NCBI RefSeq assembly: GCF_014199215.1
Contig: NZ_JACIJC010000001.1
Coordinates: 560,001-624,000, forward strand
Direction: 5' to 3'
Length of the DNA stretch: 64,000 bases
Source of the DNA: Sphingobium boeckii
GTDB taxonomy: Bacteria > Pseudomonadota > Alphaproteobacteria > Sphingomonadales > Sphingomonadaceae
Below are positions 52,427 through 62,830 of this stretch, in pieces. The notes beneath the pieces are model-generated. The model worked only from the letters and a program-made list of their open reading frames with translations, ran no database searches and was not told where the DNA came from. Numbering within the stretch: the first letter of the stretch is position 1; each line of letters begins with the position of its first letter. The position numbers and the translations under genes are program-made.

Positions 52427-54448
52427 TCAGTTGAACCGCCCCTTCGTCGCTGCCTTTTCCTTCAGCAGTGGCGCGATATCGAAGCCGTGTTTTTCCAGGC
52501 CCGCGACGATCTTGTCATTGCCTTCCAGGTCCGCCCAGAACATCGGGCCGCCGCGGTAGATCGGCCAGCCGTAACCGTAGATCCACACCACATCGATATC
52601 CGACGCGCGCTGCGCCATCTTTTCTTCCAGGATCAGCGCGCCTTCGTTGACCATCGTATAAAGCGTGCGTTCGATGATTTCCTGATCGCTGATCTCGCGC
52701 TTCACCGCGCCAGCCTTGGCCGAGAAGTCGTCGATGATCGCCTGCACCTCGGGACTGGGCGAAGGATTGCGCTTTTCATCATAATCATAAAAGCCCTTGC
52801 CGGTCTTCTGGCCCCAGCGGCCAACCGCGCACAGCGCATCGCGGACATTCTCGATTCTGGACGGATCGCGATGCCAGCCGATATCCACGCCCGCCAGATC
52901 GCTCATCTGGAACGGCCCCATGGGCATACCGAAATCCATATGGACCTTGTCGATCTGCTGTGGCGTCGCGCCTTCCATCAGCAGTTTCATGGCCTCGATC
53001 TGGCGCGGCTTGAGCATCCGATTGCCGATAAAGCCGTCACACACACCCGCGACGACCGCAACTTTCTTGATCTTCTTGGCGACCGCCATGGCCGTGGCGA
53101 GCACATCATCCGCGGTCTTCGCGCCGCGCACCACTTCGAGCAATTTCATCACATTGGCAGGCGAGAAGAAGTGCAGGCCGAGCACATCCTGCGGCCGGCT
53201 GGTGGCGGCGGCGATCTCGTTTACGTCGAGATAGCTGGTGTTGGACGCGAGGATCGCGCCGGGTTTGGCGATGGTGTCGAGCTTGCCGAACACCTCTTTC
53301 TTCACGTCCATATTCTCGAAAATGGCTTCGATGATCAGGTCGCAATCGGCCAGATCTTCGATGTTCAGCGTGGGCGTGAGCAGGCCCATCGCCTGTTCCA
53401 CGGCTTCGGGCTTGATCCGGCCCTTGGCGGCGCTGGCTTCGTAATTCTTGCGGACCACGCCGGTGCCGCGATCGAGCGCGGCCTGCTCCTGCTCCACGAT
53501 GGTCACCGGTATGCCGGCACTGAGGAAATTCATCGAAATGCCGCCGCCCATCGTGCCCGCGCCGATCACGCCGACCTTCCTGATGTCGCGCAGCGTGATG
53601 CCCTCGGCGATCCCGTCGATCTTGCTGGCCTTGCGTTCGGCGAAGAAGATGTGCCGCTGTGCCGCCGATTGCGCCCCGAACATCAGCTTGGTGAATTGTT
53701 CGCGCTCGAACGCCATGCCTTCGGCGAACGGCAGGCGGGTGGCGGCCTCGACGCAGGCGATGTTGGCGGCGGGCGCTTCAAAGCCGCGAAATTTCTTCGC
53801 ATTCGCCTTGGCGAATGCCTCGATCGACGCCGGATCGCCCTTGACGGGCATCTCGCTCGACTTGCGCGGCCCCCTGGAGATCGCGTCCTGCGCAAAGGCG
53901 ATGGCATCGGCTGCCAGCGTGTCGTCACCCGCGATCTTGTCGACCAGGCCGAGCGCTTCGGCCTTGGCGGCGCTGATCGGTGTGCCGGTGGCGCACATCT
54001 CGACGGCGGCTTCGATCCCCGCCACGCGCGGCAGACGCTGCGTGCCGCCCGCACCGGGCAAGAGGCCGAGCTTCACTTCGGGCACGCCAAGCTGCGCGGA
54101 GGCGACCGCGACACGGTAATGACAGGCGAGCGCGGTTTCGAGCCCACCGCCGAGCGCCGTGCCATGGATCGCGGCGACCACTGGCTTGGGGCAATTCTCG
54201 ATGAAATCGACCAATTCGGGCAACCAGGGATCGACCGGCGGCTTGCCGAATTCGGTGATATCCGCGCCCGCAAAGAAGGTGCGTCCATCGCAGCGGATGA
54301 CAACCGCTTTCACGCTGTCATCGTCCATCGCTTGCTGAATGCCGGCCTGCAGACCGATGCGCACGGCAGCGCCCAGCGCATTGACCGGGGGATTGTTCGA
54401 AATGATGACGAGCACGTCGCCCTGGCGTTCGGTGGTGACTACAGACAT
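52427..54448 (-). CDS. fadJ: Multifunctional enoyl-CoA hydratase / 3-hydroxyacyl-CoA dehydrogenase (FadJ/FadB-type)
   Basis: 673 residues. N-terminal crotonase domain ([22 protein letters not shown] in two parts, with the catalytic glutamate region [14 protein letters not shown]), then an NAD-binding domain ([12 protein letters not shown]) with [15 protein letters not shown], then two C-terminal 3HCDH domains. It performs steps two and three of beta-oxidation. It is the last gene of a minus-strand catabolic set, with 16 bases separating it from the esterase. Shorter than E. coli FadJ (714 residues) at the N-terminus and without an obvious isomerase. FadJ versus FadN-type cannot be settled by eye. 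Confidence 0.95.
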
Positions 54449-54464: not shown

Positions 54465-55688
54465 TCAATCGGCCAAGGCCGCGTAAAGCATCGTCTTGAT
54501 TTCCCGCCGCACCGGATAGGTGCTGGAAGGCATAAGCTGGGTCATGAACAGCATGATGATCTCTTCATGGGGATCGACGAAAAAGGCGGTGGAAAACATG
54601 CCGCCCCAATAGAAATCGCCAATGGACCCCGGGATCATGGTCGCCGCGGAATCGATCGTTGTGGCGAAACCGAGACCGAAGCCCGCGCCCGCATTCTCCG
54701 CTTCGCTGAACAGCGCGGTGGAATGTTGCGTCAGATCACCGCCGCCGGGCAGATGGTTCGCGGTCATCAGGTCGAGCGTCTTGCGGCTGAGGATCCGCGC
54801 ACCATCCAGTTCGCCCTCGTTCAGCAGCATCCGGCAGAAGCGATGATAATCACTCAATGTGGAGGCCATGCCGCCGCCACCCGAGAGCTGTTGCGGTTTT
54901 TTCGCCCAGGCGGTGGTGGCGCCGGGATCCCACAATTTCATCTTCGCGACCGGATCGAAAACCTGGCAATCGGGCACGCGCGCGATCTTGCTGTCCGGAA
55001 TCTGGAAATGCGTGTCGTCCATGCCCAGCGGGCGGGTGATCCGCGCGGCGATCACCTCGTCCAGCGGCGTGCCTTCGATGCGCTGGATCACGGCACCAAG
55101 GATATCAGTGGCGATCGAATAATTCCAGGAACTGCCGGGATCGAATTGCAGCGGAATATACGCGAGCAGCGCGATCAGCTCTTCCAGATCGGGGCCACTG
55201 AACGCTTCCAGTCTGGCCTTGCGATAGGCCGCGTCGATCGGCGTGCGCTCCTGAAAACTATAGGTGAAGCCCGCGGTGTGCCGCAGCAGATCGATCATCC
55301 GCATCGGCTGGGTGCAGGGGCGGCTGACGAACGGTGTATTGCCGCCGCCCGCCACGAACACGCCCAATTTGTTCCATTCGGGAATGATCTTCGTGACCGG
55401 ATCGGACAGCGCGATCTTGCCCTCTTCCACCAACTGCATGAACGCCACCGAGGTGATCGGCTTGGTCATGGAGGCGATGCGGAAAATGGCGTCTTGCTTA
55501 AGCGCTTCGCCGGGCCGCGCTTCGCCCTGCACCGAAAGATGCGCGATCTCGTCACCCCGCCCGATGAGCACAGCGGCATGGGGCAGTAGGCCGGGATCGA
55601 GATATTTCGCCTTCAGATGCGCCGGGATGCGGGCCAGTCGCTCGGGCGAAAAGCCGAGCTCCGCGGGGTCGGAGACGGTGAGAGTCAT
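54465..55688 (-). CDS. Serine hydrolase, beta-lactamase-like (family VIII esterase type)
   Basis: 407 residues from ATG 55688, with GGAG 7 bases upstream; an open frame to 55856 is not needed. Class C beta-lactamase-like fold: the SxxK motif SMTK near residue 95, a YSI tyrosine motif in WNYSIATD and an [10 protein letters not shown] block. Family VIII carboxylesterases such as EstB have this pattern. It may free an acid from an ester or lactone before CoA activation, fitting the neighbouring acyl-CoA genes. Confidence 0.88.
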
Positions 55689-55773: not shown

Positions 55774-56577
<804 letters not shown>

Positions 56578-56645
56578 GTCCACATCCTCAGATTGTCTGG
56601 CCGCCATCGATAGCGATGGTCCGCCCGGTAAGGAAGGTCGATGCG

Positions 56646-57713
56646 TCAGGCACCGGCTTTCACCGCGAATTCCCATGCCGATTTGGCCAGCCCGTGCACC
56701 CGCGCCGCGGTCGCCTCGGCCTGCGCGCTGGATGCGGTGCCGTCCACGATCCGTTTCTTGATGCCCTGGACGATGCCGGTCAGGCGAAAGAGATTGTAGC
56801 TGAAATACCAGTTGAGATCGGGCACGCCGCTGCGGCCGGTCGCCGCGCAATAGCGTGTCACCGTCTCTTCCAGCGACGGAATGCCGAGCGATTCCAGGTC
56901 GAGGCCGCCGATGCCCGATCGGCCTTCCGGCTCGGTGACCCAATTCATCAGATAATAAGAAAAATCGGCCAGTGGATCGCCGAGTGTAGAAAGCTCCCAA
57001 TCCAGCACGGCGCGCACCCTGGGCTCGGCGGCGTCGAAGATCATATTGTCGATCCGGTAATCCCCGTGAACGATGGACGTCCGATCCTGCGCAGGCACGG
57101 TGCGCGGCAGCCATGCGATCAACCGCTCGACATCGGGCATGAACTCGGTCTCGGACGCGCGATATTGCTTGGTCCAGCGGCCCACCTGCCGCTCGAAATA
57201 ATTGCCGGGCTTGCCATAGTCGCCCAGTCCCACAGCGTCGTGATCCACGGTGTGCAGCGCGGCCAGCGTATCGGTCATCCCATGATAGAGTCCGCGCCGT
57301 TCTTCGGGGGCCATGCCGGGGAGCGATCCGTCCCAAAGATTGCGACCTTCGACCATGGCCATCACGTAAAACATGGATCCGATCACGTGATCGTCCGCGC
57401 ACAGGCCATAAGGCCGCGCGACGGGGAAGCCGGTGGGATGCAGCGCCGCGATCAGCCGATATTCGCGGTCCACCGCATGGGCGGAGGGCAGCAGCGCGCC
57501 AAAGGGCTTGCGCCGCAACACATAGGCACCGCTGGCGGCGTCGATCCGATAGGTCGGATTGCTTTGCCCGCCCTTGAATTTGGACAGATGGATCGGCCCT
57601 GCAAAGCCGGTGACATGGGCCGTCATCCACGCGGTCAGCGCGGTCTCATCGAGCCGGTCCCTTTCGGGGACTTCGGTGGTGCCCACCATGTCTTTGTCTG
57701 CAGCGGCGACCAT
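56646..57713 (-). CDS. APH-family phosphotransferase, ACAD10/11 kinase-domain type
   Basis: 355 residues from ATG 57713, whose A is also the last base of the TGA of the upstream acyl-CoA dehydrogenase. Aminoglycoside phosphotransferase fold: [19 protein letters not shown] lysine, catalytic [13 protein letters not shown] and the metal site [17 protein letters not shown] (split). In mammals this domain is fused in front of the dehydrogenase in ACAD10 and ACAD11, and in bacteria LvaA phosphorylates 4-hydroxyacyl-CoA in levulinate breakdown. A 4-hydroxyacyl-CoA kinase role is proposed here. Confidence 0.88.
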
Positions 57714-59002
57714 CAGCGCCCCGCAGCCGCCCGGGCGGCAGCAATGGCTTCGCGCCCGCCGTGTCTGCCGAACTCCATCCGCGCGATCGAGCGATTGTGC
57801 ACCTCGTCCGGCCCGTCCGCCAGCCTGAGCGTGCGGATGCCGGCATAGGCCTTGGCCAGATCGAAATCCTCGGACACGCCCGCGCCGCCATGCGCCTGGA
57901 TCGCATCGTCGATGATGCGCAGCGCCATGCGGGGGGCGGAGACCTTGATCATCGCGATCTCGCCCTGCGCGCCCTTGTTGCCCGCTTTGTCCATCATGTC
58001 CGCCGCCTTCAGGCAGAGCAGCCGGTTCAGTTCGATATCGATCCGGGCTTCGGCGATCCTTTGCTCCCACACGCTCTGTTCGGCGAGCACCTTGCCGAAG
58101 GCGACACGGGACAACAGGCGCTTGGCCATCGCGTCGATCGCCGATTCCGCCACACCGATCGTGCGCATACAATGATGGATGCGCCCCGGCCCCAGCCGTC
58201 CCTGCGCGATCTCGAACCCGCGGCCTTCGCCCAGCAGCATATTGTCCACCGGAACACGCACGTCCTTCAGCTCGATTTCCATATGGCCATGCGGCGCGTC
58301 GTCATAGCCGAACACCGGCAGATGGCGCAGGATGTTCACCCCCGGCGCGTCCAGTTCCATCAGGATCATCGATTGCTGCGCATGGCGTTGTGCCTCGAAA
58401 TCGGTCTTGCCCATCACGATCGCGATCTTGCAGCGCGGATCGCCCGCGCCCGAAGACCACCATTTGACGCCGTTCAGCACATAATGATTGCCATCCCGTT
58501 CGATTCGCGTCTCGATATTGGTCGCGTCGGAAGAGGCGACGGCGGGTTCGGTCATCAGAAAGGCGGAGCGGATCTCCCCATCCATCAGCGGCTTGAGCCA
58601 GCGATCTTTCTGATCGCGCGTGCCATAGCGGTGAAGCACCTCCATATTGCCGGTGTCCGGGGCGGAACAGTTGAAGGCTTCGGAGGCCCAGCTAATCCGG
58701 CCCATCTCCTCGGCGCAGAGCGCATATTCCAGATTGGTGAGGCCGGGGCCGTCGAATGCAAAGCTGTCGTCCACATGCACCCGGCCCGATGTGGGGGGCA
58801 TGAAGAGATTCCAGATGCCGGCCGCCTTGGCCTTGGCCTTGGCCTCTTCGACCACGGGCAGCACTTTCCAGCGCCCGCCCTCGCGCTGCTGCGCATGATA
58901 ATCCGCATCATGCGGCCGGACATGGTTTTCGACGAAGGCGCGCACGCGGTCTCGCCAGTGGCTTTGCCGTTCGGTGAGGGTGAAATCCATGTCCGTCTCC
59001 AT
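57713..59002 (-). CDS. Acyl-CoA dehydrogenase, ACAD11-like
   Basis: 429 residues (a second ATG at 58990 would remove four). Acyl-CoA dehydrogenase fold with [33 protein letters not shown] (two parts), [16 protein letters not shown] and [16 protein letters not shown]. These blocks are those of ACAD11 rather than of ordinary fatty-acyl dehydrogenases. Where common acyl-CoA dehydrogenases have the catalytic IYEGT, this protein reads LADGPDEVH. It is expected to remove phosphate and hydrogen from 4-phosphoacyl-CoA made by the overlapping kinase. Head of the minus-strand catabolic set. Confidence 0.93.
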
Positions 59003-59251: not shown

Positions 59252-60409
59252 ATGAGCGATCTTGAAACCTTCCGTGCGGAAACGCGAGTCTGGCTTGAGG
59301 CCAATTGCCCGCCCGAGATGCGCGAGCCTGTCCGCGACGAGACCGATGCCTGTTGGGGTGGTCGCAATCCCACCTATAAATCGCCCGCGCAGAAATTGTG
59401 GATGGATCGGATGGCCGAAAAGGGGTGGACGGTGCCCGATTGGCCCAAACCCTATGGCGGCGGTGGCCTGTCTCCGGCGGAATCCAAGATATTGCGTGAG
59501 GAGATGGCCAAGCTCGGCTGTCGCAGCCCCTTGTCCAGCTTCGGCATCTGGATGCTTGGCCCGGCGCTGCTGAAATTCGGGACCGAAGCGCAAAAGATCC
59601 ATTATCTGAACCAGATCGCCAAGGGCGAAATCCGCTGGTGCCAGGGTTATTCGGAGCCCGGTTCTGGATCGGATCTGGTATCCCTCCAGACTTTTGGCGA
59701 GGATAAGGGCGATCACTGGATCGTTAATGGCCAGAAGATCTGGACCAGCTATGCCGACAAGGCGGACTGGATCTTCTGCCTGGTCCGCACGGACAAGCAT
59801 GACAAATATAAGGGCATCAGCTTCCTGCTGTTCGATATGGCAACGCCCGGCGTCACCACGAAGCCCATCAAGCTCATCTCCGGCAATTCGCCGTTCTGCG
59901 AGACCTTCTTCGATAACGTCCCCGTGCCCAAGGATCAGATCGTCGGAGAATTGAACCGCGGCTGGGATGTGGCGAAATATCTGCTGGGGCATGAGCGGGA
60001 GATGATCTCCGGCGCAGGCAATGCGCCCGTCGGTTCGCTGGGCGCGCTGCACAAGGAATTGATGGCGCAGGATCCGCTGCTGCGTGCGGAAATGGCGAAG
60101 TTGGATGTCGATACGCTGGCCTTCCGCGCGATGGGCGAAAAGTTCATCGACGAAATGAAGGCGGGCAAGGGCCATCCCGCCCAGCCCAATATGATGAAAT
60201 ATTTCGGTACCGAACTGAACAAGCGCCGCGCCGAGCTGGTGATGGCGGCGGGCGGATCGGACGCGCTCGAATGGGAAAGCGACGGGTCGGGCGGTGGCGC
60301 CAAGCCGCGCCAGTGGCTGCGCACCAAGGCCAATTCGATCGAGGGCGGCACCAGCGAGGTGATGCTGAACGTGATCGCCAAACGCATCCTCGATCTGCCG
60401 GGAGCCTGA
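59252..60409 (+). CDS. Acyl-CoA dehydrogenase (catalytic-subunit type)
   Basis: 385 residues from ATG 59252 (MSDLETFRAETRVWLEAN); the frame is open to 59189. It is of the pimeloyl-/steroid-type large-subunit group: WMDRMAEKGWTVPDWPKPYGGG (split), WCQGYSEPGSGSDL, NGQKIWTSYAD, and near the end SIEGGTSEVM with the catalytic glutamate. Head of a plus-strand set of four genes. Substrate could be a cyclic, branched or dicarboxylic acyl-CoA. Confidence 0.92.
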   Translation: MSDLETFRAETRVWLEANCPPEMREPVRDETDACWGGRNPTYKSPAQKLWMDRMAEKGWTVPDWPKPYGGGGLSPAESKILREEMAKLGCRSPLSSFGIWMLGPALLKFGTEAQKIHYLNQIAKGEIRWCQGYSEPGSGSDLVSLQTFGEDKGDHWIVNGQKIWTSYADKADWIFCLVRTDKHDKYKGISFLLFDMATPGVTTKPIKLISGNSPFCETFFDNVPVPKDQIVGELNRGWDVAKYLLGHEREMISGAGNAPVGSLGALHKELMAQDPLLRAEMAKLDVDTLAFRAMGEKFIDEMKAGKGHPAQPNMMKYFGTELNKRRAELVMAAGGSDALEWESDGSGGGAKPRQWLRTKANSIEGGTSEVMLNVIAKRILDLPGA

Positions 60410-60418
60410 CAACTATAG

Positions 60419-60542
60419 CCCTCTCCCCTTCAGGGGAGAGGGTTGGGAGAGGGGGCGGTCGGTCACCTCTCAAACTTTGAAAACATTGGGCCGGGCGGCG
60501 GACTCCCCCTCTCCCCGGCCCTCTCCCCTGAAGGGGAGAGGG
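60419..60542. repeat. Intergenic palindromic repeat A (CCCTCTCCCC type)
   Basis: Two arms, 60419-60454 and about 60503-60542, are reverse complements, each carrying the perfect inner palindrome CCCTCTCCCCT..AGGGGAGAGGG. A related copy lies at 62837-62946. The far right end GGGGAGAGGG plus AGA is the only purine-rich site before the ATG at 60551, so the repeat appears to supply the ribosome-binding site. Confidence 0.9.
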
Positions 60543-60550
60543 AGATAGAA

Positions 60551-61687
60551 ATGCCACTGTATTACGATGACGATCAGGCCATGCTGCGGGACAGTGCTTC
60601 GGCATTCATGAAGACCGAAGCGCCGACCACGCATTTCCGCGAATTTCGCGACAGGAATTGCAGCGATGGTTTCTCCCACGATCTATGGAAGCAATTCGCC
60701 GAAATGGGCTTCTCCGGCATGTTGATTCCGGAAGATCAGGGTGGGCTTGGCATGGGGCATGTCGAGGCCGGTATCGTGCTCGAAGAGATCGGCCGCAATC
60801 TGTCTCCTTCGCCTTTCCTCACGACCTCGGTCATAGGCGTCGAGGCGCTGAAGGCCGCCGACGCCGCGACGCGCGGAAAATGGCTTCCGGGCATCATCGC
60901 GGGCGAAACGGTGATCGGCATCGCGGTGGACGAAGGCGCGAAGCACCGGCCCGAACAGATCGCGATGACGGCGGAGCGTTCGGGCAACGGCTTCCGCCTC
61001 ACGGGCAAAAAGCAGTTCGTGGTGCAGGGTGCTGCGGCGGACCTGCTGATCGTCGCGGCGCGCACTGCGGGCGCGCCGGGGGAGACGGACGGGCTGACGC
61101 TGTTCGCGGTGGACAAGGATGCGGCCCATCTCTCGATGGAGGCGGCGCGTCTGGTCGATTCCAGCATGGGCGCGCATGTGAATTTCGATGGCGTGGAGGT
61201 GGATGCCGATGCCGTGATCGGCGATGTCGACAATGGCTGGGCGGTGCTGACCAGGATGCTCGATGCAGGCCGGATCGGCGCGGCGTCCGAAGCGATCGGC
61301 GTGGGCGCGGCAGCGATGGATATGACGGTGGATTATCTCAAGCAGCGCAAGCAATTCGGCCGGTTGATCGGTGAATTTCAGGCGCTGCAGCACCGTGCGG
61401 CGCATCTCTATGCGGAAATGGAGGTTGCCCGGGCGGCTGTGCTGAAGGCGCAGCAACTGCTCGATGCCGGTGATCCCAAGGCCGAATTGATGATCGCAGT
61501 GGCCAAGGCCAAGGCCGGGCAGGCGGTGAGTCTGGCGGTGAAGGAAGGCGTACAGATGCACGGCGGAATCGGGATGACCGACGAATATGATATCGGGCTT
61601 TACATGAAGCGCGATCGGGCGCTGGCGGAGTTCCTGGGGGATGCGAATTTCCATGCAGACCGCGTGGCGCGGCTGCAGGGTTATTGA
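60551..61687 (+). CDS. Acyl-CoA dehydrogenase (small-subunit type)
   Basis: 378 residues from ATG 60551. Fold signatures: FAEMGFSGMLIPEDQGGLGMG, EEIGRNLSPSPFLTTSV, AIGVGAAAMDMTVDYLKQRKQFGR (split) and VQMHGGIGMTDEYDIGLYMKR. The C-terminus reads RALAEFLGDANFHADR and lacks the EGT/EGG glutamate seen in the 59252 protein, as expected for the non-catalytic half of an alpha2beta2 acyl-CoA dehydrogenase. The next gene begins right after its stop (61685-61687). Confidence 0.9.
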   Translation: MPLYYDDDQAMLRDSASAFMKTEAPTTHFREFRDRNCSDGFSHDLWKQFAEMGFSGMLIPEDQGGLGMGHVEAGIVLEEIGRNLSPSPFLTTSVIGVEALKAADAATRGKWLPGIIAGETVIGIAVDEGAKHRPEQIAMTAERSGNGFRLTGKKQFVVQGAAADLLIVAARTAGAPGETDGLTLFAVDKDAAHLSMEAARLVDSSMGAHVNFDGVEVDADAVIGDVDNGWAVLTRMLDAGRIGAASEAIGVGAAAMDMTVDYLKQRKQFGRLIGEFQALQHRAAHLYAEMEVARAAVLKAQQLLDAGDPKAELMIAVAKAKAGQAVSLAVKEGVQMHGGIGMTDEYDIGLYMKRDRALAEFLGDANFHADRVARLQGY

Positions 61688-62830
61688 ATGGCATTAGACC
61701 CCGAAACCTTTGATGCGCTGATCGAGACGATCCGCCGCTTCGTCACCGAACGACTGCGCCCGCTCGAGGCGCAGGTGGGCGAGGAGGACGAACTCCCCGC
61801 GGCTCTGATCGAGGAGATGAGGCAGCTCGGCCTGTTCGGGCTTTCTATCCCGGAGGACTATGGCGGGCTTGGCCTGTCGATGGTCGAGGAACTGAAGATC
61901 GCCTTCGAATTCGGGCGCACCTCGCCCGCGATGCGGTCCGCCTTCGGCACCAATGTGGGCATCGGCAGCCAGGGGCTGGTGATGTCGGGCACGCCCGAGC
62001 AGAAAGAGAAATGGCTCCCGCGCATCGCCACTGGGGAGATCATCACCAGCTTCGCGCTCACCGAACCCGATGTCGGATCGGACAGCGCCGCTGTGAAGCT
62101 CCGCGCGGTCCGTGACGGCAATGTCTGGAAACTCTCGGGCACCAAGCGCTATATCACCAATGCGGACAAGGCTTCGCTCTTCACGGTGATGGCGCGCACG
62201 GGCGGGGCGGGCGCACATGGCGTCTCCGCCTTCCTCGTCCCCGCCGATCTGCCGGGCCTCACCATCGGCATCCCCGAACGCAAGATGGGTCAGCAGGGCG
62301 CGCATGTCTGCGACGTCAATTTCGATGACGTGCCCGTGCCTGCGGAGAATATGCTGGGCGCGGAGGGCGATGGTTTCAAGGTGGCGATGCGCGTGCTCGA
62401 TCGCGGGCGGCTTCATATCTCGGGCGTCTGCGTCGGCGTGGCGGAGCGGCTAATTGCGGACAGCGTGGCCTATGCCGTGGAGCGCAAGCAATTCGGCAAG
62501 CCGATCGCGGAGCATCAACTGATCCAGGCGATGATCGCCGATTCCAAGACCGAGGCGCTGGCCGCGCGCGCCTTCGTGCTGGATGTGGCGGCGAAGAAGG
62601 ATGCGGGCGAAAACACCACGATGGAGGCCGCAGCGGTAAAGCTCTTCGCCTCCGAAATGGTCGGCCGGGTGGCCGATCGCGCGGTGCAGATCTTCGGCGG
62701 CGCGGGCTATATTGCGGATTACGGGATCGAACGCTTCTACCGCGACGTGCGCCTGTTCCGCATCTATGAAGGCACCACACAGATACAGCAGCTTGTCGTC
62801 GCCCGCGAGACGATCAGGCGGGGAGGATGA
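61688..62830 (+). CDS. Acyl-CoA dehydrogenase (SCAD/MCAD-like)
   Basis: 380 residues. A standard homotetrameric acyl-CoA dehydrogenase: LFGLSIPEDYGGLGLS, SFALTEPDVGSDSAA, KRYITNADKA and the catalytic glutamate in RIYEGTTQIQQ. It oxidises a straight or branched acyl-CoA to the enoyl-CoA. It starts at the base after the stop of the 60551 gene. With the other two dehydrogenases it gives the plus-strand set three different first steps of beta-oxidation. Confidence 0.94.
   Translation: MALDPETFDALIETIRRFVTERLRPLEAQVGEEDELPAALIEEMRQLGLFGLSIPEDYGGLGLSMVEELKIAFEFGRTSPAMRSAFGTNVGIGSQGLVMSGTPEQKEKWLPRIATGEIITSFALTEPDVGSDSAAVKLRAVRDGNVWKLSGTKRYITNADKASLFTVMARTGGAGAHGVSAFLVPADLPGLTIGIPERKMGQQGAHVCDVNFDDVPVPAENMLGAEGDGFKVAMRVLDRGRLHISGVCVGVAERLIADSVAYAVERKQFGKPIAEHQLIQAMIADSKTEALAARAFVLDVAAKKDAGENTTMEAAAVKLFASEMVGRVADRAVQIFGGAGYIADYGIERFYRDVRLFRIYEGTTQIQQLVVARETIRRGG

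Follow-up and report, generated by a model that had tools for sequence, protein, structure and literature searches.

The window, a stretch of 64,000 nucleotides from Sphingobium boeckii, carries on its minus strand a compact row of genes headed by an acyl-CoA dehydrogenase (ACAD)-fold protein and an APH-fold kinase. A divergent run of three ACADs and one SDR starts at 59252 on the opposite strand. We assigned the following features.

57713-59002, minus strand: ACAD11/LvaC-type acyl-CoA dehydrogenase-fold protein, 429 aa, intact open reading frame, predicted 4-phosphoacyl-CoA lyase
57711-57715, minus strand: TGATG seam, dehydrogenase stop and kinase start, with base 57713 in both
56646-57713, minus strand: APH-fold kinase of the ACAD10/11 type, 355 aa, intact open reading frame, predicted 4-hydroxyacyl-CoA kinase
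56590-56645, minus strand: 3' scar of a lost SDR gene, 56 nt, reading as 18 residues and then a stop
55774-56577, minus strand: SDR-family oxidoreductase, 267 aa, in the same place in four relatives of the same genus
54465-55688, minus strand: class C beta-lactamase-fold esterase, SMTK at residue 73
52427-54448, minus strand: FadJ-type enoyl-CoA hydratase/3-hydroxyacyl-CoA dehydrogenase, 673 aa
59252-60409, plus strand: ACAD a, best NCBIfam match pimC_large, below cut-off
60536-61687, plus strand: ACAD b, best NCBIfam match pimD_small, below cut-off; also matches IpdE2
61688-62830, plus strand: ACAD c, ordinary type (IYEGT)

The dehydrogenase, called the lyase below after its predicted role, resembles ACAD11 most closely. 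Its best PDB matches were mouse ACAD11 (447 bits), human ACAD11 (442 bits) and 4HR3 (410 bits), whereas ordinary ACADs in the PDB reached 137 bits at most, so the resemblance is not due to chance. The motifs quoted by an initial annotation of this DNA are all present, at residues 181 and 268 and as LADGPDEVH at 394. According to the available excerpts of PMC12440821, the active site of mouse ACAD11 comprises R626, H634, R637 and the catalytic D753, and is common to LvaC. In our alignment, these residues correspond to R269, H277, R280 and D396 of the window protein. This RHRD signature was present in the window protein, mouse ACAD11, 4HR3 and 80 of 80 fetched relatives, which were picked by their match to the window protein itself, so that common residues are partly expected. 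Asp396 stands where ordinary ACADs hold a catalytic Glu (IYEGT type), which speaks against an ordinary ACAD. The genome has 18 ACAD loci: the window dehydrogenase, one RHRD locus on contig C3 and 16 others, none of which carries the signature (0/16).

Two trees gave the same placement. The first had 41 rows, drawn from 22 of the 80 relatives and 12 of the 16 other ACAD loci (ACADs a, b and c were omitted as duplicates, as was the long L018), and placed every RHRD row on one side of a single branch with support of 100/99. The RHRD protein of contig C3 (ACAD2) was a long branch in that tree, and we therefore added more of its kin to a second tree of 38 rows, with 8 of the 80 relatives and 14 ACAD2-type rows, leaving out L010, L012 and ACAD b. 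This tree resolved three clean groups and joined the dehydrogenase to mouse ACAD11 with support of 100/99. The ordinary ACADs of the genome were separate from this clade in both. The initial annotation had called the protein ACAD11-like and had named a tree as the place to look for a grouping with ordinary ACADs; the protein sided with ACAD11 twice, and together with the RHRD residues and the 447-bit match this bears the assignment out.

The kinase belongs to the same family. It carries HGDYRIDN at residues 216-223 and DWE at 238, and shares 54% of its residues with 3DXP, 40% with the kinase domain of mouse ACAD11 and 33% with 9O56. Of 28 loci tried for a kinase tree, all but L096 yielded a row, and the tree was built from 33 selected rows. 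In it, a clade of 22 rows held the window kinase, the mouse domain and 3DXP with support of 98/96; 9O56 fell outside, and the tree left the branching place of the mouse domain within the clade unsettled. D218, N223 and R175 of the window kinase correspond to the mouse catalytic residues Asp220 and Asn225 and to the CoA-contacting Arg176 of the ERQ motif. Arg86, described as lying beside the alphaC Glu, did not match by the paper's number, since column 86 has F in the mouse domain and Y in the window kinase; the Arg of the DRE motif, beside the Glu, is kept and may be the residue described. The clade and the three conserved residues agree with the earlier description of an APH-type kinase related to ACAD11. 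A resistance kinase of the APH(3') type was rejected, as the NCBIfam match scored 25.3 bits, far below the curated cut-off of 205. A defence role for the pair was likewise rejected, as PADLOC returned no match for the kinase or the dehydrogenase. As a side observation, PDB entry 3DXP, by sequence an APH-fold kinase, bears the deposited name 'putative acyl-CoA dehydrogenase', which may reflect the ACAD11 fusion.

The lyase and kinase genes meet at the seam, where the minus strand reads GGGGCGCTGATGGTCGCC and TGA and ATG share base 57713, as had been noted before, given the first kinase ATG. A second in-frame ATG lies eight codons in (MVGTTEV, 57689), and relatives diverge upstream of it; the one-base overlap holds only if the first ATG is the true start, and the inner one would leave a 23-nt gap. 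In 4 of 4 orthologous loci of the same genus (L054-L057), lyase and kinase are separated by the gene for a zinc alcohol dehydrogenase of roughly 360 aa. We scored the best 80 of 592 named loci, of which 70 were informative, that is, extended at least 2.6 kb downstream of the lyase. The order lyase, alcohol dehydrogenase, kinase was found in 64 of the 70; among the other six, three had lyase and kinase directly adjacent, two had the alcohol dehydrogenase but no adjoining kinase, and one had neither. The kinase adjoins the lyase or stands one gene off in 67 of the 70. In the closest relative, L054, TGATG joins the lyase stop to the alcohol dehydrogenase start, and the alcohol dehydrogenase stop meets the kinase start as ATGA. 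Because 64 of 70 informative relatives have the alcohol dehydrogenase in between, the one-base overlap of lyase and kinase is secondary: the window lineage lost the middle gene, and its loss produced the direct overlap. The simplest reading of the seam is a clean loss of that gene, although it may be an assembly effect. It had been suggested that the overlap means joint production of the two proteins; the bases do overlap, but the arrangement is secondary and in L054 the same TGATG joins the lyase to another gene.

A further loss left a trace downstream of the kinase. L055 and L056 carry an extra SDR gene (SDR1) between the kinase and the SDR, and L054 and L057 are without it. The 56 nt that follow the kinase gene in the window are identical to the 3' ends of SDR1 in L055 and L056 at 45 and 46 of 56 positions, with net scores of 34 and 36, where 200 shuffles never exceeded 15; compared with L058 the score was 21 against a shuffle maximum of 14. 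The window lineage thus lost an SDR gene and kept this scar. The MFS_2-type transporter found upstream in relatives is also missing at the window operon.

The genes that remain form a tight row. Lyase, kinase, SDR, esterase and FadJ are all open frames, and the gaps after the kinase measure 68 nt to the SDR, 85 nt to the esterase and 16 nt to FadJ, all on the minus strand. What we take to be the hydratase and dehydrogenase motifs of the FadJ-type protein are both present. The best solved match of the esterase is the esterase 7PP3 (373 bits), and its sequence places it among serine hydrolases with the class C beta-lactamase fold and no further. The opening of lactones or esters, suggested earlier, would be a possible role for it. 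Two short thiolase-like motif matches in the window were taken as spurious. The earlier proposal that SDR, esterase and FadJ belong to one set with the pair is retained in part: they share a strand and small gaps, and FadJ could take the product of the lyase.

We next asked how widely this arrangement occurs. At 1e-100 or better, the lyase was matched in 46 of 59 relative genomes and in 85 of 299 genomes of a phylum sample, the window's own included in both counts. In the nearest relatives, the row reads transporter, dehydrogenase, zinc alcohol dehydrogenase, kinase, one or two SDRs, esterase and FadJ. By comparison across loci, the first four genes of this row are widespread among sphingomonads, and the esterase and FadJ occur in a minority. 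Across the best 80 of the 592 named loci, the transporter was found in 58, an SDR of the window type in 27, the esterase in 16 and FadJ in 12, and the last three counts make the tail of the window operon a minority arrangement. In the literature searched, we found no paper linking an ACAD10/11-type or Lva-type pair to sphingomonads.

Beyond close relatives the pairing of lyase and kinase is not universal. Among 80 loci picked at ranks from family to phylum, each covering 10-13 kb, 44 had a kinase match and 36 had none; 17 held both alcohol dehydrogenase and kinase, and in another 17 the kinase lay less than 250 nt from the lyase without an alcohol dehydrogenase. One other genus matched the lyase in 144 of 149 genomes. 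We read 20 of its loci: a kinase stood beside the lyase in one (L202, of the 9O56 type), an AMP-ligase motif was present in seven, and there was no SDR of the searched types, no full operon and no lva operon. With 36 of 80 wider loci and 19 of 20 loci of that genus lacking a kinase, the lyase is often alone or has its kinase elsewhere. In L075, L088, L089, L090 and L091, an ACAD11-type lyase has upstream of it a kinase sharing 32-35% identity with the window kinase, and in the 33-row tree the kinases of L075, L088 and L089 make up a separate clade. On an annotated plasmid of Novosphingobium capsulatum, the lyase and a phosphotransferase are followed by two SDRs, a FadJ-type protein, a fatty acid-CoA ligase and two ACADs, a row that supports a complete acid-degrading route.

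The RHRD locus on contig C3 is part of a second pair in the same genome.

C3:170170-172397 (L023:15138-17398), minus strand: second kinase-ACAD pair, outside the window

Upstream of it lies a zinc alcohol dehydrogenase gene, and an enoyl-CoA hydratase gene lies downstream. The kinase of this pair is 55% identical to the window kinase; ACAD2 is 36% identical to the window lyase, keeps the RHRD active-site residues and belongs to a strongly supported clade of its own, sister to the ACAD11 clade in the 38-row tree. A motif search found ACAD2-type RHRD residues in 30 of 30 loci, its own included, and in 10 of 10 more distant loci (48-69% identity). A kinase of the same type follows ACAD2 within 1.5 kb in 17 of the 30 loci and is absent there in 13. 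Among the 10 distant loci, seven have another kinase just upstream (27-34% identity to two queries), two have a kinase about 2 kb or more downstream and one has none. Four ACAD2-linked kinases (its own, L173, L178 and L195) fall within the ACAD11-type kinase clade. L023:10932-13501, close to the second pair, holds another APH-fold kinase, next to a protein of 377 aa that matches no Pfam family at 1e-5.

ACAD2 was matched at 1e-80 in 72 of 249 genomes in a family search, its own included, and at 1e-60 in 174 plasmid records, of which 90 share at least 60% identity. On a Pseudosulfitobacter plasmid the pair is lined up with genes for two hydratases, a TRAP transporter, a CoA ligase, an ACAD, an SDR and a thiolase, a set that comes near the lva genes in content, and on the N. 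capsulatum plasmid an ACAD2-type pair is accompanied by one ACAD, one SDR and one hydratase. At 1e-80, only one of 200 genomes of a phylum sample matched ACAD2, the window's own, which counts against a wide spread. We lean, by a narrow margin, towards the view that this genome runs two parallel 4-hydroxyacyl-CoA routes and that the ACAD2 clade is a second, undescribed family of 4-phosphoacyl-CoA lyases; such lyases would sit on chromosomes and on plasmids, at least once in an operon that also carries a transporter, a CoA ligase, an SDR, a kinase, hydratases and a thiolase.

Taken together, these results make it highly probable that the pair in the window is a bacterial, unfused counterpart of ACAD10/11, a kinase and a phosphate-elimination lyase that would act on 4-hydroxyacyl-CoA and feed FadJ. 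The trees and the RHRD residues make phosphorylation followed by phosphate elimination on such a substrate likely. The kinase would use ATP to phosphorylate the 4-hydroxyl of a 4-hydroxyacyl-CoA. The ACAD11-type flavoprotein would then remove the phosphate through its catalytic Asp396 to give a 2-enoyl-CoA, as judged from assayed homologues, with its FAD working without net loss of electrons. The FadJ-type protein would hydrate and oxidise this product, and thiolase and CoA ligase would be supplied from elsewhere in the genome. The SDRs, and the alcohol dehydrogenase of relatives, may turn 4-oxo forms into 4-hydroxy forms and back, or provide the stereochemistry that the kinase requires. In this lineage, shedding of the alcohol dehydrogenase and an SDR would have brought lyase and kinase together. 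Of the earlier proposal of a 4-hydroxyacyl-CoA pathway, the family of both proteins stood, on trees, residues and the partner gene; its emphasis on a split and on the overlap did not.

The pair might instead apply this chemistry to a steroid- or terpenoid-like acid, bulky or cyclic, in place of straight-chain 4-hydroxy fatty acids, and would then work together with the divergent ACADs a and b. ACADs of the pimC, pimD and IpdE2 types are linked with bulky substrates, and ACADs a and b have pimC_large and pimD_small as their best matches, with IpdE2 at 149 bits for b, all below the curated cut-offs; among the best 80 of 592 named loci, a was matched in 70 and b in 67. No operon protein has a family match specific for steroid or terpenoid breakdown, and we regard this substrate as possible though unlikely. 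It is quite improbable that the operon is decaying and the pair a remnant that has lost its pathway along with the alcohol dehydrogenase, an SDR and the upstream transporter. The missing genes and the 56-nt scar fit such a history, as does the finding that the L055 alcohol dehydrogenase has at best full-length matches of 35-37% identity in the window genome (short pieces reach 46%). Yet five operon genes are open and active-site residues are kept, a lyase and kinase within 250 nt and without an alcohol dehydrogenase recur in 17 of 80 wider loci and on the N. capsulatum plasmid, and the first SDR is also missing from two of the four relatives of the same genus (L054 and L057).

A levulinate (lva) operon in the strict sense is very improbable here, even though a kinase, an LvaC-like protein and an SDR are all present. 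The strict order, taken from the gene letters A to E as kinase, LvaB, lyase, SDR and CoA ligase, is not found in the window, where the lyase comes first, nothing lies between lyase and kinase and no acyl-CoA ligase motif occurs within 64 kb. We give almost no credence to the view that an ordinary ACAD happens to lie beside an antibiotic-type phosphotransferase. The weak APH(3') match and hits to ordinary ACAD families would be its basis, but the former is far under its cut-off, and trees, RHRD residues, scores and pairing are all contrary; we rejected it.

The preferred reading, an unfused ACAD10/11-type pair, has wider bearing. The 85 of 299 genomes of the phylum sample that match the lyase back the view that ACAD10/11-type catabolism of 4-hydroxy acids is common in bacteria, and its genes pass under bland names: of 40 plasmid matches listed, most are named 'acyl-CoA dehydrogenase family protein'. 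The partners of the sphingomonad operon (zinc alcohol dehydrogenase, SDRs and transporter) hint at a supply of 4-hydroxy acids. The ACAD2 sister clade widens the four-residue test for phosphate-eliminating ACADs past the described family.

Among known systems, mouse ACAD11 (8V3U/8V3V) offers a close comparison: its two domains align to the window kinase and lyase, with the same four active-site residues including the catalytic Asp and the same HGD...N and DWE kinase motifs. The domains are fused in one chain in mammalian ACAD10 and ACAD11, whereas the window has two proteins; ACAD10, set beside the window pair by description, has an extra HAD domain. Among solved kinases, 3DXP is of the same clade as the window kinase. 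The 16 ordinary ACAD loci of this genome provide the contrast, for the same Pfam domains occur in three window neighbours, yet these loci lack RHRD and lie on the other side of the trees from the lyase.

Bacterial precedents for separate proteins are already on record. In the excerpts available, LvaA and LvaC of Pseudomonas putida are described as separate proteins (PMC12440821, PMC11342911), and the kinase and ACAD parts of ACAD10 could each be replaced in vitro by separate Burkholderia proteins (PMC11342911). The initial annotation had presented a 'split' ACAD11 as special; on the same excerpts, separate proteins are the described bacterial state. The accessible text of PMC6692424 letters the lva genes A to E, gives LvaB as a separate 12-kDa protein and, citing Rand et al. 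2017, places lvaABCD homologues in Alpha-, Beta- and Gammaproteobacteria. Like the window, P. putida KT2440 has, as far as these excerpts (PMC12440821, PMC11342911, PMC6692424) go, a separate kinase and an ACAD-fold lyase in an operon with an SDR; the window differs in lacking the LvaB position and a CoA ligase and in its gene order, a likeness drawn by description. The Burkholderia pair, likened by description from the excerpt of PMC11342911, is an unfused bacterial kinase and ACAD, as in the window. The window pair is very probably one more case of a system known from mammals and Pseudomonas that allows 4-hydroxy fatty acids to be broken down, and its operon lacks genes still present in relatives. 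The kind of system is already known; what is new here is the lost middle gene, the SDR scar and the ACAD2 sister clade.
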